The notes under the pieces were generated by a model, which made no database searches, was not told the origin of the DNA, and saw only the letters and a list, made by a program, of their open reading frames with translations. The translations under genes and the position numbers were made by a program. Of a stretch of 9,119 bases of DNA, positions 1,234 to 8,881 are shown piece by piece (position 1 is the stretch's first letter; the number at the start of each line of letters is the position of its first letter). The DNA is from an uncultured Chloroflexaceae bacterium. Its GTDB lineage: Bacteria > Chloroflexota > Chloroflexia > Chloroflexales > Chloroflexaceae. The DNA is taken from positions 1 through 9,119 of the forward strand of contig CAKZQX010000886.1 in assembly GCA_937141995.1 (NCBI GenBank). The letters run 5' to 3'.

Positions 1234-1392
1234 CTACAGGGTGGAAGAACCCGGAGCTTTTTCACAAAATGTTGCTCTCAGAGCAACATTTTGTGAAAAA
1301 GCTCAAGAAGTACCATGCTGCCGCAGGCGCAACCGGCGTTTGGGTCCGGCATCGGGCCGGAATAGACCGTACCGCGTAACTCGTGTTGTTTA
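1234..1392 (+). repeat. Nested-hairpin repeat, left-truncated copy (A)
   Basis: Right part of the mobile-looking repeat family. The remnant of the left flank is CAGGGTGGAAGAA (1237-1249). The central palindrome has two 24-nt arms (1254-1277 and 1281-1304) that are perfectly complementary around the 3-nt loop TCA. It is followed by the family-constant TACCATGCTGCCGCAGGCG (1311-1329), a 39-nt spacer with its own short stem (TCCGGC/GCCGGA, about 1345-1361), and the right terminal repeat ACCGCGTAACTCGTG (1371-1385). TTGTTTA (1386-1392) occupies the position of the 7-bp target duplication. No matching left terminal repeat is found; the left end seems lost or replaced by the CACGAAGAA segment. Confidence 0.8.
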
Positions 1393-1435
1393 GAATGCCC
1401 CGCCGTAGATTCCACCACACAACCGACATTACATC

Positions 1436-1464
1436 TTGAGATCATTCGCCTACCGTGCTAGAAT
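1436..1464 (+). promoter_or_regulatory. Sigma-70-type promoter of the OmpR-family regulator
   Basis: TTGAGA (1436-1441), a 17-nt spacer and TAGAAT (1459-1464), preceded by TGC, which adds an extended -10. It predicts a transcript start near 1471 and a leader of about 35 nt before the ATG at 1505. Its position argues against a longer coding start at the TTG at 1436, which would lie inside the -35 box. Confidence 0.75.
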
Positions 1465-1504
1465 ACACAGCAGTACCCGAAAGAATGAGCAACTATTTAC
1501 CGAA

Positions 1505-2221
1505 ATGTCAGAACTAAAAGATAAACTCATCCTTGTGGTTGATGATGAAGTGCGCATGGTCAACTTTATGCGGATGAACCTGGAGTTGGAGGGCGCGCGC
1601 GTCAGTAGTGCTACCAACGGCCGCGAGGCACTGGATCGCGCCCGCGAAGATATGCCCGATGTAGTATTGCTTGACATAATGATGCCGGGGATGGATGGCT
1701 TTGAGACGCTGCGGCGGTTACGCCAGTTTTCCCAGGTGCCGGTGCTGATCCTGACGGCCAAGGATGAAGAGGAAGACCGGGTGCGCGGGCTGGAACTGGG
1801 CGCTGATGACTATATCGGCAAGCCCTTCAGCCACCGCGAACTGGTCAGCCGTATCCGCGCTGTGCTGCGGCGGCATTACACCGCTCCCCCGATCCCGCAA
1901 ACGCTGGTCAAGGTTGATGACCGGCTCCAGATTGATTTTGCCCGCCGCGAGGTGCTGGTTGCGGGTGAGCGGGTCAACCTGCGTCCCACCGAGTATCGCC
2001 TGCTCTATCATCTGGTGCAGAATGCCGGATATGTGCAGACGCACGAGATGCTGCTGACAAAAGTTTGGGGACCGGAGTATCGGGACGAGAGCCACTACCT
2101 GCGGCTCTACATCACCTACCTGCGGCAGAAGATCGAGCAAGATCCGGCGCACCCCAAGTATATTCTGACCGAGCGCGGCGTGGGGTATCGCTTTATTGAC
2201 TTTGAAAATCAGGCCGGGTAA
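1505..2221 (+). CDS. OmpR/PhoB-family two-component response regulator
   Basis: A 238-residue cytoplasmic transcription regulator activated by phosphorylation. The receiver domain covers about residues 7-123, with the acidic pocket VVDDE (Asp13, Asp14), phospho-acceptor Asp57 in [11 protein letters not shown], Thr84 and Lys106 (GKPF). The OmpR-type winged-helix DNA-binding domain covers about 137-232, with the typical [11 protein letters not shown] and the C-terminal hairpin [10 protein letters not shown]. Length is normal for the family. The start chosen is ATG 1505, since the in-frame upstream alternative at 1436 overlaps a good promoter; no strong Shine-Dalgarno is visible, so translation may rely on a short, weakly structured leader. 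No histidine kinase gene is adjacent, so its partner is unknown. The stop lies only 3 nt from the stop of the convergent gene on the other strand. Confidence 0.93.
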
Positions 2222-2224
2222 AAC

Positions 2225-2824
2225 TCAGGGCTGTTCTTCAACCAGGCTCAACATATCCTGGCGCAGCCGCTGCAACCGCTGCGTCATCCCTTCGGGGCGT
2301 ACTTGCAGATCCTCTCGCACCTCGCTGATCTGCATACGAAACTCGCCAATCGGTCCCTTATCCTGCTCGGTACTCAAGGCATACGCCTGGTCCAGCGATA
2401 CCCGGACGGTGATTAGTATCCGCTCAACCTCGTTCAGTTCGTTCACCTGGAGCGCATCATCCGCATCGGCCAGTTGTGCCGCCGCGCGCATCAGATAGTA
2501 GGCACTCCAGACCCGTCGCAGTTCGGCGCGCAGATCGAGGATCTCCTGGCTGAGAATGCGTTCGTCGGGGAGGGGTGGTGTCGGCAAAATGGAAGTTGGC
2601 GTAAGCGTGGGAAGCGGAGCCAATGTTGCCGAGGCAGGCGTCGCTGTCAGTGGCAGCAGCAAAACAGACTGCTGGCGCGCCAGTAGCGCGGCCTGAATAA
2701 GCAGGCTAAGCACTACGGCTGCCAGCGCAGTCACAACAAACGGAAGCGTGGACTTGAGTCGCGCATGCCGTGACGCTCCAGTTGATGCCGAGCGGTCGGG
2801 CGGGTCGGGCTGAGCTGCAGGCAC
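2225..2824 (-). CDS. Membrane-anchored coiled-coil protein of unknown function
   Basis: A 199-residue protein I cannot assign to a family. It has an N-terminal cytoplasmic tail rich in Pro, Ser and Arg (about 1-24), one transmembrane helix (about 26-50, with FVVTALAAVVLSLLIQAALL), a low-complexity linker rich in Thr, Pro and Ala (about 58-87), and a mostly helical, charged C-terminal part (about 88-199) that could form a coiled coil. By the positive-inside rule the C-terminal part should be outside the membrane. The start is GTG at 2822-2824, 13 nt after the stop of the ANTAR regulator, with a weak AAGGT about 11 nt upstream, so the two genes are probably cotranscribed. Its 3' end faces the OmpR-type regulator with a 3-nt gap and no room for a terminator. 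Confidence 0.8.
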   Translation of the reverse strand: MPAAQPDPPDRSASTGASRHARLKSTLPFVVTALAAVVLSLLIQAALLARQQSVLLLPLTATPASATLAPLPTLTPTSILPTPPLPDERILSQEILDLRAELRRVWSAYYLMRAAAQLADADDALQVNELNEVERILITVRVSLDQAYALSTEQDKGPIGEFRMQISEVREDLQVRPEGMTQRLQRLRQDMLSLVEEQP

Positions 2825-2837
2825 GATGCAGTTGACC

Positions 2838-3413
2838 TTAAATCTCGTTCGCTAAGAGGATGGCCTGCGCAATCTCCTTCATTGATTTGCGTGTATTCAT
2901 TGAGAGTTGCTGAATCTTCCGAAATGCCTCAGCCTCTTTCAGCCCCTGCGAGTCCATCAAGACACCCTTGGCACGCTCGACCAGCTTGCGCGTGTCCAGC
3001 GTCTCCTTCAGATCCTTGATTTCCTTATCCATCTCCAGGAATTCCTGGTAGCGGGCCAGGGCAATCTCAATTGCGGGGAGCAGTTCCGCGTCACGGAACG
3101 GTTTCACAACATAGTTAACAACCCCGGCTTCACGCGCCCGCTCCACAAGCTCACGATCAGAATAGGCCGTTAACAGCAATACCGGCGCAATTTTTTCTTC
3201 GGTTAACACCTTGGCTGCCTGAATACCATCGAGTTTGGGCATCTTGATGTCCATCAACACCAGATCAGGCCGCAGTTCGCGTGCCAGGTGGATAACGCTG
3301 GTGCCATCGCCTGCTTCGCCGACGACCAGGTACCCCAGGCCAATTAATGTTTCTTTGAGGTTCATACGAATGAGCGACTCATCATCCGCAATCACCAGAC
3401 GTACTTGTGCCAT
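2838..3413 (-). CDS. ANTAR-domain response regulator (putative transcription antiterminator)
   Basis: A 191-residue two-component output protein. The receiver domain (about 3-122) has Asp10/Asp11, phospho-acceptor Asp55 in LVLMDIKMPKLDG, Thr82 and Lys104 (VKPF). A helical linker (about 122-140) leads into the ANTAR domain (about 131-187, RKLVERAKGVLMDSQGLKEAEAFRKIQQLSMNT region). ANTAR domains bind paired RNA hairpins with six-base loops and prevent premature termination; this layout matches PdtaR-like proteins. The ATG at 3411-3413 has AAGGAAG seven nt upstream and a strong promoter. The membrane coiled-coil gene follows 13 nt downstream. No cognate histidine kinase is nearby, and I see no clear dual six-base-loop target RNA in this window. 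Confidence 0.93.
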   Translation of the reverse strand: MAQVRLVIADDESLIRMNLKETLIGLGYLVVGEAGDGTSVIHLARELRPDLVLMDIKMPKLDGIQAAKVLTEEKIAPVLLLTAYSDRELVERAREAGVVNYVVKPFRDAELLPAIEIALARYQEFLEMDKEIKDLKETLDTRKLVERAKGVLMDSQGLKEAEAFRKIQQLSMNTRKSMKEIAQAILLANEI

Positions 3414-3461
3414 CGTGACACTTCCTTAAATATGGCGGCTAAATCCTATACGAGCACCCGA

Positions 3462-3490
3462 AGTATAGCATGCCGATCAGTGACGGTCAA
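3462..3490 (-). promoter_or_regulatory. Promoter of the ANTAR regulator operon
   Basis: On the minus strand TTGACC (3490-3485), a 17-nt spacer and TATACT (3467-3462), with TGC just before the -10. The predicted start is near 3455, giving a leader of about 40 nt to the ATG at 3413. The sequence around the -10, GGCATGCTATACT, closely resembles that upstream of the STAS gene (GGCATGCTATAAT). Confidence 0.75.
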
Positions 3491-3619
3491 CATTCGTGGC
3501 GATAATGGCGACTGGTGACTGGTAGCTGGCGATGGGGTCGAGGGTGGAAAGCGTGCATTTATGGCCGCGAGCCGCAGCTACGAACTGGTACGGCATACGG
3601 TATCGCAGGGCAAAGGGAA

Positions 3620-3659
3620 ACCGTGAACCGTGTCGAGTGAAGGTTGAACGGTTCACGGT
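3620..3659 (-). terminator. 12-bp inverted repeat, possible weak terminator of the STAS transcript
   Basis: ACCGTGAACCGT (3620-3631) and ACGGTTCACGGT (3648-3659) are perfectly complementary around a 16-nt loop. On the minus strand, downstream of the STAS stop at 3733, the stem is followed by TTTCCCTTTGC, which is only moderately T-rich. It could end the STAS transcript, or be an unrelated repeat. The rest of the 3414-3732 spacer holds short repeats (CGGCATACGG at 3591-3600 and 3680-3689, GACTGGT units near 3509) and no supported gene. Confidence 0.45.
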
Positions 3660-3686
3660 ATGGTACTATCCGTAACGTGCGGCATA

Positions 3687-3737
3687 CGGACTACCGACTA
3701 CGGATTACGGACGACAGATTACGGACTACGGACTACG
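3687..3737. repeat. Heptamer tandem repeat, consensus CGGAYTA, seven units
   Basis: Seven consecutive 7-bp units: CGGACTA, CCGACTA, CGGATTA, CGGACGA, CAGATTA, CGGACTA, CGGACTA (3687-3735), followed by CG. The complement of the last three bases of unit seven (3733-3735) is the TAG stop of the STAS gene, so the array abuts that gene exactly. Units differ by one or two substitutions, which suggests age or slippage with drift. Any translation through it is low-complexity and not a real protein. Confidence 0.85.
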
Positions 3738-4062
3738 TGTGCGCGGCCAGGGCCGCCTCACGATCCGGGTGGATCGTGAACAGCGTATCAAAGCGGCTCT
3801 TGCGAAATATATCCGCAATGGGTGGTTGGAGACCACACAGAACCAACGCGCCACCCTGTCGTTTCACTTCCTTGTGATTGGTCAACAGCATACGCAGGGC
3901 CAGGCTGGCCACAAACTCAGTATTGCTCATATCGACCAGCGTCGTACCTTTGTGGGCTGTCACGGCTTCCCCAAACTTCTTCTCTACCGCTGAAACGCCG
4001 ACTGCGTCGAGGCGCTGGGGGAGTTCGATCACCAGGATATTACCAATCTGCTCTGATTTCAC
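3733..4062 (-). CDS. STAS-domain protein, anti-sigma factor antagonist-like (SpoIIAA/RsbV type)
   Basis: A single STAS domain of about 109 residues. In partner switching such proteins bind the RsbW-type kinase when unphosphorylated and so free its target. The fold-typical pattern is visible: SEQIGNILVIELPQRLDAVGVSAVEKKF, then TTLVDMSNTEFVASLALRML, then GGALVLCGLQPPIADIFRKSRF. The usual DSSGL or SSAGL phosphorylation motif is altered to ASLAL: one serine remains (codon 3904-3906) while the following glycine is alanine. Start: GTG 4060-4062 is preferred, because AAAGGGG lies eight nt upstream; the TTG at 4066-4068 would sit only two nt from that site. It lies 153 nt downstream of the phosphatase gene and has its own promoter. 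The stop falls in a heptamer repeat. Confidence 0.88.
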   Translation of the reverse strand: MKSEQIGNILVIELPQRLDAVGVSAVEKKFGEAVTAHKGTTLVDMSNTEFVASLALRMLLTNHKEVKRQGGALVLCGLQPPIADIFRKSRFDTLFTIHPDREAALAAHT

Positions 4063-4130
4063 ACCCAAGACCCCTTTCTGGTGTAGGAACGTATCCTGAA
4101 CTTCGTATCAAGTAAGGAATATAACCCATG

Positions 4131-4176
4131 CTGCGTTGTATGCTGCCAGGATACGGGTTCTGGCTTCCATACGCAG
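4131..4176 (-). other. Possible hairpin in the STAS gene leader
   Basis: On the minus strand CTGCGTATG (4176-4168) pairs with CATAC..CGCAG (4142-4131, small bulge), enclosing a second stem GCCAG/CTGGC with a 10-nt loop. It lies within the roughly 125-nt leader predicted from the promoter at 4195-4203. It could affect mRNA stability or translation of the STAS protein. The loop is not six bases, so it does not match a standard ANTAR target. The rest of 4069-4215 shows nothing else. Confidence 0.4.
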
Positions 4177-4194
4177 TTCTCTCTGTTGCGAGAT

Positions 4195-4203
4195 ATTATA
4201 GCA
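4195..4203 (-). promoter_or_regulatory. Extended -10 promoter of the STAS gene
   Basis: Minus strand TGCTATAAT: a perfect TATAAT with the TG extension. No good -35 is visible at 17 nt, as is common for extended -10 promoters. The upstream part overlaps the last codons of the phosphatase gene. It allows the STAS protein to be made independently of the RsbW-phosphatase pair. Confidence 0.6.
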
Positions 4204-4215
4204 TGCCCATCGTAC

Positions 4216-5493
4216 TTATGCCGGTAACATTGCCCGACTGACAATCAATAAGGTCATATCATCAGCCTGTGGCGCACCGGCCACGTAGGTTTCAACTGCC
4301 TGCACAATCATTTCGAGCAAGTCTTTAGCGGAAGCCCCGGCATGCGCGTGCAACACGGTCAGCAGGCGCTCATCGCCATAGGGTTCATCCGCCATATTCA
4401 TTGCCTCAGTAATGCCGTCGCTAAAGCCGACAAATGTCTCACCGGCGGTCAGCGTTGTCTGCGCGGTGGCATAGGTCTGCTGGCTCATAACACCCAGTGG
4501 TAGATTAGCCGCTTCTAATTCTCGGATGGCACTACCGTCCCTGCTGACAATCAGCGGGGGATTATGCCCCGCGTTGGTATAACTCAACTGACCCGTCCGG
4601 GGGTCCAGAACGCCGTAAAAAAGCGTTGTAAACATATCGCTGTCGCCATGTTCGCGGGTGAGATAATCATTCACCAGCCAGAGCGCCCCGGTCAGGATCA
4701 GGTCGGGGTCGGTAATCCGGTTGCCCTGGAAGGCCCAGGGAGCCTGAGACGCGGCCCGCAGCAGACTGCGTGTCAGCGCCACGAACAGTGCTGCCGGGAC
4801 ACCTTTGCCGCAGACATCGGCAACCACCAGCCCCAGATGTCCATTCGGCAGTTCAATACAGTCGAAGAAATCGCCGCCCACGGCCTGCGCGCCTCGGCTA
4901 AAGGCGGCAATCTCCCATCCGGAAAACTGCGGCAGTGTGCGTGGCAAGAACAACTCCTGGATGCGCCGGGCCACCGCCAGTTCTTCTTCCAGGCGGTTCA
5001 GGCGAATAACTTCGGCCTGCGCCGCCTGTAGTTCCTCGTAGGCGCGGGATAACTCGGCGTTTTTCTGCTCCAGGTCGGCAATCATACGCTGGCTGGTGCT
5101 GCGCAGGTGGGCCGTTACGTCGCGCAACAGTTCCAGCGCCAGCACCGGATCATTCGACATCAGGGTGGTAAAGTGCTGCTTGTTGAGCACAGCCAGCCGT
5201 CCGGCCGTCACCGCACGTACGGTTGCGGAGCGGGGGCTGCTGTCAATCAACGCCATCTCCCCGATGATCTCGCCCGCGCAGCGCGTACCCAGGCGCATCT
5301 CGGTGCCATTGATGTAGGTAATTACCGCCAGTTCACCCGTCAGAATGACATAGCAATTATTGCCCTCATCGCCCTGCCAGAACAGCACCTCACCGGCCTC
5401 CAGATACCGCTCGTCCAACTCCGCCGCCAGGCGGGCCAGGTCCGCATCGGCGAAGCCCTTGAAAATCGCTACCTGCCGCAGCCGTTCGAACAT
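4216..5493 (-). CDS. Cyclic-nucleotide-binding PP2C (SpoIIE/RsbU-type) serine phosphatase
   Basis: A protein of 425 residues joining a sensor to a phosphatase that would dephosphorylate a STAS partner. The N-terminal cNMP-binding domain (about 1-120) has a phosphate-binding cassette GEMALIDSSPRSATVRA (about 79-95) with the Glu and Arg expected for cAMP or cGMP binding. A heptad-rich helix (about 132-180, including EQKNAELSRAYEELQAAQAEV) links to the PP2C domain (about 185-422). Metal-binding acidic residues are present: GGDFFD (about 207-212), ADVCGKG (Asp near 227), FSDGITEA (Asp near 360) and ADDMTLL (about 411-417). ATG 5491-5493 is preferred over the adjacent GTG, since GAGGA lies six nt upstream. 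The start shares one base with the stop of the RsbW-like gene (TGATG), implying translational coupling. Confidence 0.94.
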   Translation of the reverse strand: MFERLRQVAIFKGFADADLARLAAELDERYLEAGEVLFWQGDEGNNCYVILTGELAVITYINGTEMRLGTRCAGEIIGEMALIDSSPRSATVRAVTAGRLAVLNKQHFTTLMSNDPVLALELLRDVTAHLRSTSQRMIADLEQKNAELSRAYEELQAAQAEVIRLNRLEEELAVARRIQELFLPRTLPQFSGWEIAAFSRGAQAVGGDFFDCIELPNGHLGLVVADVCGKGVPAALFVALTRSLLRAASQAPWAFQGNRITDPDLILTGALWLVNDYLTREHGDSDMFTTLFYGVLDPRTGQLSYTNAGHNPPLIVSRDGSAIRELEAANLPLGVMSQQTYATAQTTLTAGETFVGFSDGITEAMNMADEPYGDERLLTVLHAHAGASAKDLLEMIVQAVETYVAGAPQADDMTLLIVSRAMLPA

Positions 5494-5915
5494 CACGCGT
5501 CCTCGCGCCTTTTGATAATCACCAGTTCATTCCATCCGCTGCCGGTGTCGTGGCTGTAGGAGAGGTCATCAGCCAGTTCGCGTACCAGGAAGACACCCAG
5601 ACCGCCGACGACGCGTTGTTCCAGACTTTCACATAAATCGGGGGCGGGAACTTCATGAGGATCAAAGGGGCGACCCTGATCGCGGATCGCTACCCGGAGA
5701 ACGCCATCGGTGCAGCTACATCCAAGTTGAATAACACCATACGACCCACTGTCGTAACCATACTTGATAATGTTAGTCGCAATTTCTTCGATTGCCAGTC
5801 GCAGCAGGTATTTCTGTTCTTCGGAAAGCGCCAGCCGGCACTCAAATTCATCACTAAAGGCCATCAGGTGGGCGATACTTTCCCAGTCGGCGGGCACTTC
5901 AATGTTCTGCTCCAT
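5493..5915 (-). CDS. RsbW/SpoIIAB-like anti-sigma factor serine kinase
   Basis: A 140-residue HATPase_c protein of the RsbW type, which binds a sigma factor or other partner and phosphorylates a STAS antagonist. Bergerat-fold motifs are complete: N-box EEIATNIIKYGY (about 43-54, Asn48), G1 box RDQGRPFDP (Asp79), and G2 region GGLGVFLVRELADD (about 104-117). ATG 5913-5915 has GAGGT nine nt upstream and gives the family's usual length; the frame stays open further upstream into a repeat element but that part is not protein-like. The phosphatase gene overlaps its stop by one base. No sigma factor gene is in the window, so the kinase's final target is unknown. Confidence 0.93.
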   Translation of the reverse strand: MEQNIEVPADWESIAHLMAFSDEFECRLALSEEQKYLLRLAIEEIATNIIKYGYDSGSYGVIQLGCSCTDGVLRVAIRDQGRPFDPHEVPAPDLCESLEQRVVGGLGVFLVRELADDLSYSHDTGSGWNELVIIKRREDA

Positions 5916-5957
5916 TGCCCTGTTACCTCGCTTGTTGTGTCCGAATTCTCTATGAGA

Positions 5958-5966
5958 AGTGTAGCA
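5958..5966 (-). promoter_or_regulatory. Candidate extended -10 promoter of the rsbW-like operon
   Basis: Minus strand TGCTACACT, matching TGN-TATAAT at most positions, about 40 nt upstream of the ATG at 5915. No convincing -35 is seen. It resembles the extended -10 of the ANTAR (TGCTATACT) and STAS (TGCTATAAT) genes. Confidence 0.42.
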
Positions 5967-6185
5967 TAGGGAAATGACCGCTACGTAACGACGACAGATC
6001 GTGTGACAGGTGATTTCGTTGAAGTGTTTCCATCTGCCTGTCCGCACCTGCCCGGATGATCCCAACCGGCAGGCGGGAGAATCATTCCCCGCAAGTGTAT
6101 GCTGAGCAGCATCTTTTGTCAATCTTTTGCTCGGTCTCCCGGTCTGGTGTCGTGTGTCAGCCATACTGCCGTACCCAAAAAGAAC
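5967..6185. other. Spacer upstream of the rsbW-like gene, no gene seen
   Basis: This stretch separates the partner-switching operon from repeat copy B. I see no supported gene, RNA or strong promoter. An imperfect inverted pair GGATGAT (6054-6060) and ATCATTCC (6080-6087) and a small palindrome TGCTGAGCA (about 6100-6108) are present but without a clear role. Confidence 0.5.
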
Positions 6186-6192
6186 TAAATGA

Positions 6193-6389
6193 TACGAGTT
6201 ACGCGGTTGCTCACCCAAAAGGCATTTTCGCCTCCGGCAGGGCGGAAGATTCCATTCTTTGTTCACAAAAAATTTGCACTTTGTGCAAATTTTTTGTGAA
6301 CAAAGATAAAACAGTACCATGCTGCCGCAGGCGAAGCTGACTTTCATCGGGTGAAACGCCCAGGTTGCGCACTTACCGCGTAACTCCTG
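6193..6389 (+). mobile_element. Nested-hairpin MITE-like element, copy B
   Basis: Full copy, 197 bp. Left terminal repeat TACGAGTTACGCGGT (6193-6207) and right ACCGCGTAACTCCTG (6375-6389) are complementary except for one or two bases near the tip. Inner arms TTCGCCTCCGGCAG (6227-6240) and CTGCCGCAGGCGAA (6322-6335). The central palindrome has two perfect 24-nt arms (6256-6279, 6283-6306) around loop TTT. Spacers are 19 nt left and 39 nt right; the right one holds GGGTG/CGCCC around AAA. TAAATGA (6186-6192) flanks the left end; TCATTTA, its reverse complement, lies between this copy and copy C. No protein is encoded. Confidence 0.75.
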
Positions 6390-6396
6390 TCATTTA

Positions 6397-6656
6397 TAGG
6401 AGGTTCGCGGTCCTCCGTGAGCGAGTTCTTTTCGCCTCCGGCAGGGCGGAAGAAAATATCTTTTTTCGGAAACATGTGGCTCGGAGAGCCACATGTTTCC
6501 GAAAAAGATGGGAAAGAGGCCATCTTTTCCACAAAAAATTTGCTCCCAGAGTAAATTTTTTTGTGGAAAAATAAAACAAGTACCATGCTGCCGCAGGCGA
6601 ATCCGACCATTACTGTGTTCAAACGTCCAGTTTGAGCACCCACCGCGTAACTCGTA
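6397..6656 (+). mobile_element. Nested-hairpin MITE-like element, copy C (two central hairpins)
   Basis: Full copy, 260 bp, 7 bp after copy B in the same orientation. Left end TAGGAGGTTCGCGGT (6397-6411) is degenerate (12 of 15 to consensus); right end ACCGCGTAACTCGTA (6642-6656) is a perfect complement of copy B's left end. Inner arms lie at 6431-6444 and 6588-6601. It has two central hairpins: 21-bp perfect arms 6462-6482/6486-6506 with loop GGA, and 6525-6545/6549-6570 with loop CCA, one bulge and one G-T pair. A short AAAAGATGG/CCATCTTTT pair spans the junction. The 40-nt right spacer carries a 10-bp stem (GTGTTCAAAC/GTTTGAGCAC). TAAATGA follows at 6657-6663. Confidence 0.73.
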
Positions 6657-6686
6657 TAAATGAAAGAACGCTACGCCCGGCATATT

Positions 6687-7316
6687 TTACCGATCCATCC
6701 CCACGAATACGGCGAGTGTATACCAGAGCCCGAATCCGATAATAACGACTCCCGCGATCCGGTTGATCCAGCGGAGTTGCGTCGGGGTGATACGGGCGCG
6801 GAAGATACTCACACCGCCGCTCAGCAGCAACCACCAGAGCGCCGAGCCGGTGAAGACCCCTGTTACCACCAGCGCGGCTGTGCTATAGCTGCCGCCCGTC
6901 TGGACCATGCCTAACCCGGCAAAGATTGCTATAAATGCAAAGATAGTCATCGGGTTGGTGATGGTCAGCAAGAAGGTTGAGATATACGCGCCCAGCAGAC
7001 CACGACTGCCGGCAACGGCGGCCTCTTCGGCGGGCGGACGAAAAAAGGTTTTGAGCCCCAGGTAGAGAAGAAACAGGCCGCCCAGCAACTGAAGCCCGGT
7101 TTGTCGGCTCAACAATAGATTTGATACCAGCGTCAGTCCAAAACCCGCGATGCAGCCATAGCAGGCATCGGCCGTTGCTGCCCCCAACCCGGAGACCAGG
7201 CCGGCGGCGCGTCCGTCAGCCAGGGTGCGGCGAATGCACAGCACCCCGATGGGACCAACCGGCGCGGCGATGGCAAAGCCGATAATGATCCCATGCCCGA
7301 GGAAACTGATGTCCAC
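6687..7316 (-). CDS. LysE-family amino-acid/small-molecule exporter
   Basis: A 209-residue integral membrane protein of the LysE/RhtB superfamily, which export amino acids or related compounds using the proton gradient. The N-terminal family signature is clear: GFAIAAPVGPIGVLCIRRTLADGRAAGLVSGLGAATAD, followed by about six transmembrane segments (near 5-25, 38-62, 70-90, 108-135, 145-167 and 180-203) and the conserved NP motif in LLTITNPMTIFAFIAIFAG. Length is typical. The start is GTG 7314-7316, since AAAGGAG ends six nt upstream; an in-frame TTG at 7320-7322 touches the ribosome site and is unlikely. Repeat copy D begins about 20 nt upstream of the start codon, so any promoter must lie in the element or beyond. 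Substrate unknown. Confidence 0.92.
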   Translation of the reverse strand: MDISFLGHGIIIGFAIAAPVGPIGVLCIRRTLADGRAAGLVSGLGAATADACYGCIAGFGLTLVSNLLLSRQTGLQLLGGLFLLYLGLKTFFRPPAEEAAVAGSRGLLGAYISTFLLTITNPMTIFAFIAIFAGLGMVQTGGSYSTAALVVTGVFTGSALWWLLLSGGVSIFRARITPTQLRWINRIAGVVIIGFGLWYTLAVFVGMDR

Positions 7317-7335
7317 ATACAACTCCTTTCACATG

Positions 7336-7560
7336 CAAAAGTTACGTAGTGAGTGTCCAAACGGGACGTTTGACCAGGGGCAAAACCGATTCGCCTGCGG
7401 CAGCATGGTACGTTTTTATTCTTTTTCACAACAATGTGCTCAAAGAGCACATTGTTGTGAAAAAGATGGTCCCATTCCGGACTTGTCCCCAAAAGGAATG
7501 GGCTCTTCCACCCTGCCGGAGGCGAAATTTCCTTTCGGAGAAATGACCGCTTAACTTGTG
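7336..7560 (-). mobile_element. Nested-hairpin MITE-like element, copy D (inverted)
   Basis: Full copy, 225 bp, opposite in orientation to the others. Its terminal repeats CAAAAGTTACGTAGT (7336-7350) and ACCGCTTAACTTGTG (7546-7560) are diverged. Inner arms lie at 7390-7403 and 7513-7526. The central palindrome has perfect 22-nt arms (7420-7441, 7445-7466) around AAA. A second inverted pair CCCATTCC/GGAATGGG (7471-7478, 7495-7502) lies between palindrome and arm. Spacers are 39 and 19 nt, mirrored as expected for inversion. Flanking 7-mers TCACATG (7329-7335) and TCATATG (7561-7567) differ by one base, consistent with an old target duplication. Confidence 0.72.
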
Positions 7561-7567
7561 TCATATG

Positions 7568-7582
7568 CACGAGTTACACGGT
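7568..7582. repeat. Solitary terminal repeat of the nested-hairpin family
   Basis: CACGAGTTACACGGT matches the left-end consensus TACGAGTTACGCGGT at 13 of 15 positions and starts exactly 7 bp after the end of copy D, the same spacing seen between copies B and C. No inner arms or central palindrome follow at the expected 19 or 39 nt, so this is probably the stump of a deleted second element. Confidence 0.6.
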
Positions 7583-7604
7583 AGGCGTTCAAAACTGCCC
7601 CTGC

Positions 7605-7635
7605 AAAAAACCCGCCAGACCTCAGGTCTGGCGGG
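7605..7635 (-). terminator. Rho-independent terminator of the peptidase operon
   Basis: On the minus strand CCCGCCAGACC (7635-7625), loop TGA and GGTCTGGCGGG (7621-7611), followed by TTTTTT (7610-7605). The 11-bp GC-rich stem plus T-run is a textbook intrinsic terminator, placed downstream of the peptidase and small membrane protein genes after a leaderless stretch of about 180 nt. That stretch (7636-7816) shows no gene. The terminator isolates the exporter gene from upstream transcription. Confidence 0.88.
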
Positions 7636-7816
7636 CGGTTCAGCGGCAAAGATGCGCAGGCACAGCTACCCAAACCGGAGATCCGGCATCGGGACAGGCT
7701 GACGCTGCTGGTTCCTGCTTGTATGGGATTGGTTGTGTAAAAACATAGTTGAAACGTTCACTGGCAATTCATGTAGGGGCAAAATACCTTTCACCCCGGG
7801 TTGTGATATACGCGGG

Positions 7817-7939
7817 CTAGGCTTCTTCCGGCTCACCCAGCAGTTTGTTCGTCAGATAGCTTGCCAACCAGGCGGCCAGCGAACTCAAGATCAAGCTCAA
7901 CGCGCCGTACACCAACCGTCGCTTCATATCAGTATCCAT
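7817..7939 (-). CDS. Small membrane protein of 40 residues, unknown function
   Basis: Sequence begins MDTDMKRRLVYGALSL and ends LLGEPEEA. A short positively charged N-terminus is followed by one hydrophobic helix (about 9-29, LVYGALSLILSSLAAWLASYL) and an acidic tail, so it is likely a single-pass inner-membrane protein with the N-terminus inside. GGAGGAG lies seven nt before the ATG at 7937-7939 and overlaps the last codons of the peptidase gene, whose stop is three nt upstream. The excellent ribosome site, tight spacing and shared terminator make this a real operon partner of the peptidase, perhaps a regulatory or stabilising subunit; that role is inference. Confidence 0.75.
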   Translation of the reverse strand: MDTDMKRRLVYGALSLILSSLAAWLASYLTNKLLGEPEEA

Positions 7940-7942
7940 ACA

Positions 7943-8629
7943 TTAACTCCTCCGTCCGGTAAGCAACAAGAGAAAGTAGAACAGTTGCGAAATGGCCTGT
8001 GCCGCCGCTGCCACATAGGTAAGGGCTGCGGCGTTGAGTAACTGATTAACACCCTGTGCGTCCTGACTTGTCACCAGACCGTTGCGGGTGAGCATTTCAC
8101 GCGCGCGGCTGCTGGCGTTAAACTCCACCGGCAGCGTTACCAGAGTGAAGGCGACGGCTGCGCTAAAGAGAATAACCCCGGCCCAGGCAAGCGACTCGCC
8201 CAGGGGTGACATTGCGCTCATGATCAGGCCAACAATCACCAGTAATAGACCAAACTGCGAGCCAATATTGGCAACGCCTACAAGCCCGGCCCGCACCCGC
8301 AGCCAGGCATACCCCTGCTGATCCTGCACTGCGTGGCCCAGTTCGTGTGCAACGATTGCCAGCGCCGCCACCGAGGGTGCGCGGATAGAGCCCTGCGAGA
8401 GCCGCATGACCTTCCCCCGCGGATCGTAGTGATCGGTTAGATTTCCAGGGATCTCCTCGATCCGCACATGGTCCAGACCCTCGTTACGGGTCAGCATACG
8501 AGCAACATCCATGCCGGTCAAGCCCTGGGCATTGGGTACCTTGGAAAACTTCGCATAAGTTGAGCGGACACGCATCTGCGCCCACATTGCAAAGAGCAGC
8601 GCAGGTAAAAAGAAGAGTAGATAAAGCAT
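7943..8629 (-). CDS. YugP-like membrane zinc metallopeptidase (Zn_peptidase_2 family)
   Basis: A 228-residue membrane protein. The zinc-binding HELGH is in AIVAHELGHAVQDQ (His95, Glu96, His99), and the likely third ligand Glu169 is in LPVEFNASSRAREML, a stretch typical of this family. Upstream of HELGH is the family pattern TDHYDPRGKVMRLSQGSIRAPSVAALAIVAHE. Transmembrane segments lie near 2-17, 114-140, 146-167 and 198-224; the active site should face the cytoplasm. Length fits the family (about 225-235). The ATG at 8627-8629 has GGAAAGG 11 nt upstream, which is a little long. A 40-residue membrane protein gene follows three nt after the stop. Substrates of this family are not well known. Repeat copy E begins about 27 nt upstream of the start. 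Confidence 0.93.
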   Translation of the reverse strand: MLYLLFFLPALLFAMWAQMRVRSTYAKFSKVPNAQGLTGMDVARMLTRNEGLDHVRIEEIPGNLTDHYDPRGKVMRLSQGSIRAPSVAALAIVAHELGHAVQDQQGYAWLRVRAGLVGVANIGSQFGLLLVIVGLIMSAMSPLGESLAWAGVILFSAAVAFTLVTLPVEFNASSRAREMLTRNGLVTSQDAQGVNQLLNAAALTYVAAAAQAISQLFYFLLLLTGRRS

Positions 8630-8658
8630 AATTATTGATGCCTTTCCAGGAAAAGCTT

Positions 8659-8686
8659 ATTTAACGCGTTACGCGGTGGGTTCCAA
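8659..8686 (-). promoter_or_regulatory. Candidate hybrid promoter at the edge of repeat copy E
   Basis: Minus strand TTGGAA (8686-8681), a 16-nt spacer and TTAAAT (8664-8659), about 30 nt before the peptidase ATG. The -35 would lie in the element's spacer and the -10 in the target duplication. Both boxes match consensus at four of six positions, so this is tentative. Confidence 0.28.
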
Positions 8687-8874
8687 ACCAGGCATCTGCC
8701 TGGACAAATGGCCCGATTCGCCTCCGGCAGGGCGGAAGAAACGACCTTTTTCACAAAAATGTTGCACATAGTACAACATTTTTGTGAAAAGAAAAAACGT
8801 CCCATGCTGCCGCAGGCGAAGACTGCCGTTGTGGAAGTACATGTCTGATGTGTATGCCCACCGCGTAAGCCGTG
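8664..8874 (+). mobile_element. Nested-hairpin MITE-like element, copy E
   Basis: Full copy, 211 bp, flanked by the perfect 7-bp direct repeat TTATTTA (8657-8663 and 8875-8881). Terminal repeats ACGCGTTACGCGGTGGG (8664-8680) and CCCACCGCGTAAGCCGTG (8857-8874). Inner arms TTCGCCTCCGGCAG (8717-8730) and CTGCCGCAGGCGAA (8807-8820). Central hairpin arms 8746-8767 and 8771-8791 around ATA have one bulged T and one C-A mismatch. Both spacers are 39 nt; the left one has an extra stem CCAGGC/GCCTGG (around 8688-8703). It carries no gene. Confidence 0.78.
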
Positions 8875-8881
8875 TTATTTA

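Follow-up and report, generated by a model that had tools for sequence, protein, structure and literature searches.

A family of short intergenic transposon-like repeats in a Chloroflexaceae genome, a candidate transposase, and central palindromes probably kept by template switching

We analyzed a stretch of 9,119 nucleotides, here called the window (positions 1-9119 of contig CAKZQX010000886.1; G000:C886:1-9119 in our numbering), from the draft genome of an uncultured Chloroflexaceae bacterium (assembly GCA_937141995.1, 5.4 Mb in 1122 contigs). The gene spacers of this host contain short transposon-like repeats, well over a hundred in all. They are non-coding miniature inverted-repeat transposable elements (MITEs) with 15-bp terminal inverted repeats (TIRs) and, where these are preserved, 7- or 8-bp target duplications. 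The explanation that we favor as a whole, and with fair confidence, is that they were likely inserted by cut-and-paste in trans through a DDE transposase that is related to IS701 and has a predicted Tn5 fold, and that their central palindromes are probably kept by template switching.

Ends, abundance and target sites

Four MITEs in the window are complete (B-E), a fifth (A) is truncated, and a solo end is also present (Table 1). The original prediction, made from the letters alone, had counted five copies of 197-260 bp and a solo end; the four complete copies and the solo end stand, but copy A lacks its left end. The predicted length of about 15 bp for the TIRs was correct, as was the intergenic position of every copy, outside the nine reading frames taken as genes (a Pfam family is found in eight of the nine). 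From the outside inward, a complete copy consists of a 15-bp TIR, a variable stretch, an outer stem and a central palindrome. The outer stem is formed by the motif TTCGCCTCCGGCAG facing CTGCCGCAGGCGAA about 80 bases away. In a typical copy the central palindrome has arms of around 20-25 bp, and its commonest loop is 3 bases (52 of 85).

The end consensus occurs nine times in the window with at most two mismatches, against 0.15 expected, and none of 200 shuffles reached nine. These ends, and duplications far above those in shuffled flanks, bear out the earlier claim of transposition rather than chance hairpins. The flanking repeats named for E, for the B-C pair and for D are all present (Table 1). 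Those of E are exact provided that one terminal base of E was lost, and those of D differ by one mismatch. The inverted repeat between B and C is new to the earlier description.

The family is abundant in the host, as had been supposed. With at most two mismatches allowed, TACGAGTTACGCGGT matches 663 places and its reversed pattern 19; exact matches to CASGASKTACGCGGT number 545, against 0 for the control. Among 61 genomes, CASGASKTACGCGGT has matches in 14, with 139 in the congener G001, 66 in G003, 42 in G009 and 33 in G051. The end 17-mer was found in 3 of 400 genomes of the phylum (the host, G001 and, as a single match, G268), a draw that does not include OHK40 and Kouleothrix, which are discussed below. 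Outside Chloroflexota, a 571-bp archaeal stretch in Methanocorpusculum parvum (L245, 2925-3495) is bounded by TAGGACTTACGCGGTGGG and a 15-base inverted match.

Duplications were analyzed in 61 of the 1122 host contigs (477,498 bases), namely that of the window and 60 chosen for end matches or for the insertion sequence (IS) on contig C394; densities from these contigs are not genome averages. With the pairing search limited to 330 bp, we found 139 paired elements, short and non-coding, of 40-290 bp (52 of them 193-198 bp). Exact duplications of 7 bp flank 28 elements and of 8 bp ten, with two more of 6 bp and one of 9 bp; in shuffled flanks the 7-bp count is 0.75 and the 8-bp count 0. The 7-bp duplications of the original prediction are thus real, but beyond the window the length is 7 or 8 bp. 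The target consensus is TNA-N(1-2)-TNA. TNANTNA fits 23 of the 28 sites of 7 bp, and TNANNTNA fits 6 of the 10 of 8 bp; the counts are 18 of 20 and 6 of 10 in a differently filtered set, which differs from the 139 elements in its mismatch limits, where base composition predicts about 0.2%.

A point against the favored explanation is that 98 of the 139 paired elements lack an exact duplication. Copies without 7-bp repeats had been named beforehand as grounds for refutation; the 98 go partway in that direction. Decay, mispaired ends and exchanges within arrays are the likely causes.

The lack of empty sites in relatives had been named as a further ground. The congener G001 is syntenic with the window at 69-76% identity, and no clean empty site was found there, the spacers being too diverged to align. 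The interval 5917-7845, which includes B, C and D, measures 1928 b in the window and 727 b in G001, so a LysE-type gene, MITEs B, C and D, or both differ between the two genomes. A nested copy does give a related empty site. The element at L014 12232-12422 lies within another MITE, and when its flanks are joined they realign with uninterrupted copies, leaving one 7-bp site; the two copies of this site differ by one base.

Central palindromes and template switching

The arms of the central palindrome are mostly matched within each copy. In 80 copies chosen by the outer motifs alone, to avoid bias, the best 18-bp stem is free of mismatches in 55 and has no more than one in 68, whereas arms drawn from two different copies differ by a mean of 5.5 mismatches. 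The set of 80 includes at least one copy, L182, whose best stem is formed at a TIR junction instead of by the central palindrome. We aligned 75 copies with an insert of 74-83 bases, again chosen by the outer motifs. Paired cells make up 94.7% of this alignment, compared with 83.7% when shuffled and at most 53.3% when slid, and 226 cells show two-sided changes (57 shuffled, 34-53 slid). The central stem accounts for 223 two-sided changes and 80 mismatches. The outer stem of the same 75 copies has 2 two-sided changes and 89 mismatches, and it retains an arm-specific difference in most copies. It tells against too strong a reading that the 75 copies are related, and the two-sided changes count copies, not independent events.

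Short-range template switching predicts this split between the central and outer stems; selection on the whole fold does not. In our view, template switching while the DNA is replicated is the probable reason why the central palindromes stay perfect. When one arm mutates, the polymerase, by moving to the opposite arm (usually 3 bases off), would either erase the change or copy it across. Switching would not reach over the roughly 80 bases that separate the arms of the outer stem, and mismatches would persist there. Passages of published work describe arm homogenization and spacer inversion via template switching (PMC8604942) and multibase compensatory changes in hairpins (PMC8794818).

If selection instead preserved the central hairpin, whether for a role as RNA or as a protein-binding DNA site, the two-sided changes would be ordinary compensatory mutations. 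The covariation is indeed strong (19 of 21 central-helix pairs changed on both sides), a common hairpin style, TTTTTCAC...GTGAAAAA, is kept across copies, and one palindrome of copy C is among ten terminator-like sites of the window. However, shuffles give 9.3 such sites, so there is no excess, and no Rfam family reaches its gathering score in the window. The path of change fits selection poorly as well. The two-sided changes of the central stem comprise 57 of transition type and 166 of transversion type, and the latter cannot be bridged by a single G.T intermediate. Its mismatches comprise 20 G.T, 29 A.C and 31 others, and G.T intermediates are thus scarce beside the 223 two-sided changes. 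G.T is not favored over A.C on the oriented strand (11 versus 8; 20 versus 29 in the 75-copy count), as expected without tolerance at the RNA level, and the arms of the Kouleothrix copy are wholly different and longer. We regard selection as an unlikely explanation, although one that deserves to be taken seriously.

Template switching could also invert a spacer that lies between facing TIRs; the TCATTTA that separates B from C hints at this. Both outer copies there read TAAATGA, and a flip of the spacer would explain the inversion. Several observations argue against giving this process a wide role. Inverted flanks are seen at 3 of 81 array elements (one with a mismatch) and at 0 of 74 single elements of the differently filtered set. 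On recheck, a full flip is present at B-C only; L169 and L011 are half cases, with an inverted copy on one side and the other side not usable. At L021 the left and middle copies agree and the inverted one is the right outer copy, a pattern that a spacer flip leaves unexplained. Facing TIRs at array junctions are weakly more alike than re-paired ones (2.82 versus 3.38 mismatches, with 0 of 5000 shuffles as low), a similar small excess is seen between both TIRs of a single element (6.08 versus 6.44), and the 15 bases beyond the junction TIRs show no excess matching. Since the junction and within-element excesses are alike, subfamilies may explain both. Strong homogenization of facing TIRs at junctions was considered and rejected, because the excess is only slight.

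A broader reading, which we hold tentatively and at a little under even chances, is that the hairpins form a natural library recording bacterial template switching, with scores of like-sized copies, mostly with loops of 1 or 3 bases and nearly all with arms of their own. Arms a few bases apart would copy each other, those about 80 apart would not, and spacers between facing TIRs could flip. The palindrome would then be self-repairing DNA, kept by mutation bias and not by selection.

Candidate transposase and arrays

As originally stated, no transposase gene is seen among the reading frames of the window. The accompanying statement that the mobilizing enzyme is unknown needs revision, as a candidate IS with the same ends exists in Kouleothrix aurantiaca and OHK40; it holds to the extent that no such IS was found in the host assembly. 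Kouleothrix aurantiaca carries a 1274-bp IS with MITE-type ends (CAGGACTTACGCGGT) that encodes a 382-aa transposase. The same species has a 165-bp MITE with the inner motif of the window, and both IS and MITE carry CAGGACTTACGCGGTG, so that the short element has its ends in common with an autonomous one. A close IS whose 15 end bases are identical is present in OHK40, where two insertions (paired across contigs) have 8-bp duplications. The 382-aa transposase has a predicted Tn5/IS4 fold, RNase H-like with D, D and E, and a DDE_5 domain above the Pfam cut-off. The IS701 profiles score 125.8 bits (NF049921, cut-off 250), 97.9 bits (NF033540, cut-off 150) and 77.5 bits (NF049999, cut-off 170). 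By sequence, the enzyme is related to IS701 but passes no curated NCBIfam cut-off. A transposase of this Kouleothrix type likely moves the MITEs of the window in trans; the cut-and-paste mode is suggested by analogy with the Tn5/IS4 fold.

This assignment has difficulties. No close relative of the Kouleothrix transposase was found in the host assembly (best 23% identity), the Kouleothrix IS copy has no matching duplication, and both IS duplications are of 8 bp, whereas the exact MITE duplications are mostly of 7 bp. Another IS701-type transposase might mobilize the MITEs, for example the NF049921 (IS701_2) element on host contig C394. It is present in the host assembly, scores 320 bits against the cut-off of 250, and has an 8-bp duplication, TAATATAA, that fits TNANNTNA. 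Its ends, CTCACCTTACGC, agree with the MITE ends mainly in TTACGC, and duplications at loci matched by another IS701_2 element, described next, are of a different length, which makes this candidate quite improbable. An IS701_2 element of G017 with TAGGACTTACGCAGTTG ends had at first seemed to be the enzyme and was rejected: seven loci matched by this query (in G012, G021, G028, G029 twice, G044 and G046) have duplications of 5-6 bp, and the G017 element itself has none.

The C394 element (L138, 1421-2588) adjoins a MITE end and its TCAATAA spacer. In G006 (L209, L218, L223) the IS with CTCACCTTACGC ends is multi-copy, with ten equal-length partial matches to its first 35 aa.

Of 51 PF01609 matches in ten MITE-bearing genomes, the 30 covered include no transposase bounded by MITE ends. 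In viral contigs neither transposase has a relative and the end 18-mer is absent, and phages gave no match. Plasmids gave 58 records, all below 60% identity and at most 27% among the best 20 matches listed. The sole match in a PDB sequence search is irrelevant (E 0.43).

Neighboring copies are often joined in arrays. Exactly 7 or 8 bp separate 28 of 80 adjacent element pairs, and the gaps between facing ends are most often 7 (43) or 8 bp (23), where the background count is about 3. The smaller maximum at 14-15 (21 and 9) comes at least partly from a register shift, since the same end is matched a second time 7 bases inward. The 7- and 8-bp spacings would be expected of a self-targeting transposase, one that seeks the ends of its own element, or of tandem duplication. 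Tandem duplication is made unlikely by the identity of 0.743 for array neighbors and random pairs alike (12 of the 28 junction pairs, with both partners of 170-230 bp); the neighbors look like independent insertions. As to self-targeting, the non-coding DNA of the 61 contigs contains 446 consensus target sites, and 148 element flanks fit the consensus. Even filling of the non-coding sites in a simulation gives 40.2 shared junctions (sd, standard deviation, 4.6), and self-targeting is then not needed. With coding sites included the simulation gives 11.6 (sd 3.1), too few for the junctions seen, which favors self-targeting. Both the simulation and the coding mask are crude (the mask covers 81.5%, and 16 of the 139 elements overlap it by at least 30%). 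A point against simple target preference is that the observed 28 junctions fit neither model, being about 2.6 sd below the non-coding expectation and far above that for all sites; the truth is between the two. We think it rather unlikely that self-targeting or tandem duplication made the arrays. Target preference within non-coding DNA would suffice for neighbors with a common duplication, which are likely independent insertions: a duplication already has the consensus of a target, and non-coding DNA offers few such sites.

The window and known systems

The features of the window are collected in Table 1.

Table 1. Positions of MITE copies, palindromes and target duplications in the window
Feature	Position	Strand	Details
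Copy A, 5'-truncated, ~152 bp	1234..1385	+	right TIR 1371-1385; left TIR absent; inner motif GTACCATGCTGCCGCAGGCG present
Copy A palindrome arms	1254-1278 / 1280-1304		
TAAATGA, left duplication of B-C pair	6186..6192	.	
Copy B, 197 bp	6193..6389	+	TIRs TACGAGTTACGCGGT / ACCGCGTAACTCCTG
Copy B central palindrome	6256..6306	.	24-bp arms, perfect; loop 3
TCATTTA between B and C, duplication in inverted orientation	6390..6396	.	against both outer copies: 7/7 inverted, 4/7 direct
Copy C, 260 bp	6397..6656	+	left TIR degenerate; two serial central palindromes, 6462-6506 and 6525-6569
TAAATGA, right duplication of B-C pair	6657..6663	.	
TCACATG, left duplication of D	7329..7335	.	
Copy D, 225 bp, opposite orientation	7336..7560	-	palindrome 7420-7466
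TCATATG, between D and solo end	7561..7567	.	one mismatch to TCACATG
Solo TIR CACGAGTTACACGGT, remnant of a further neighbor	7568..7582	+	
TTATTTA, left duplication of E	8657..8663	.	
Copy E, 211 bp	8664..8874	+	palindrome 8748-8790, one mismatch; loss of the first TIR base assumed
TTATTTA, right duplication of E	8875..8881	.	

A terminator-like GC-rich hairpin with a T-run lies just after the solo end (7610-7636). At 3686-3737, a gene spacer contains imperfect ACGGACTACGGATTACG-like repeats that recur every 14 bases and are unrelated to the MITEs. Between 2838 and 5915, an ANTAR response regulator, a STAS protein, a SpoIIE phosphatase with a cNMP domain and a HATPase_c_2 kinase are clustered, which resembles a partner-switching module.

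Short, intergenic, palindromic and abundant copies could also suggest repetitive extragenic palindromes (REP/REPIN) spread by a RAYT (Y1) transposase. REP/REPIN sequences are defined as lacking a target duplication and having a RAYT partner, and long TIRs and target duplications are, to our knowledge, not REP features. The window family has both, and the transposase linked to it is DDE, not HUH. As the duplications are present, we give this origin almost no weight, although no search for a RAYT was made.

Bacterial MITEs are in general short and non-coding, with TIRs, target duplications, a high copy number and an enzyme supplied from elsewhere. A perfect central palindrome specific to each copy is, as far as we know, not among their defining features. 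The Tn5/IS50 transposase (IS4 superfamily) has 11-12% identity to the candidate transposase, and Tn5 makes target duplications of 9 bp. With the IS701 family (NF049921, NF033540, NF049999; Pfam DDE_5) the candidate shares a sequence relation and the DDE_5 domain. It differs in its duplications, as the IS701 element ISTth8 is tabulated with 4 bp (PMC6352166), whereas the OHK40 insertions have 8 bp, the MITEs 7-8 bp and the Kouleothrix copy none.

In all the general features just listed the window family resembles bacterial MITEs. A term search of a review on such elements found neither IS701 nor Chloroflexi (PMC10969869). The MITE-like repeats of Thiohalocapsa PB-PSB1 are likewise tandem and inverted, match IS ends and have predicted stem-loops; they belong to another host, and shared duplications and arm covariation are not treated in the relevant passages (PMC10907252). 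Among the matches listed, open-licence full-text literature on MITEs with Chloroflexus, Chloroflexi or Chloroflexales does not describe the family, although older descriptions may exist, and open-licence literature joining MITE, palindrome and template switching gave Drosophila work only.

The family is an abundant one in Chloroflexota, linked to a candidate transposase in an IS701/Tn5-like branch; that enzyme lies below the NCBIfam cut-offs. The family suggests a route by which elements could accumulate in arrays through target preference alone. Its nested inverted repeats, with different arm distances in one element, offer a comparison within a genome between selection and template-switch mutation as the source of perfect hairpins. 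The kind of system, a MITE together with an IS, is already known; what is new is the transposase branch, the 7-8 bp targets and the distance-dependent matching of the arms.

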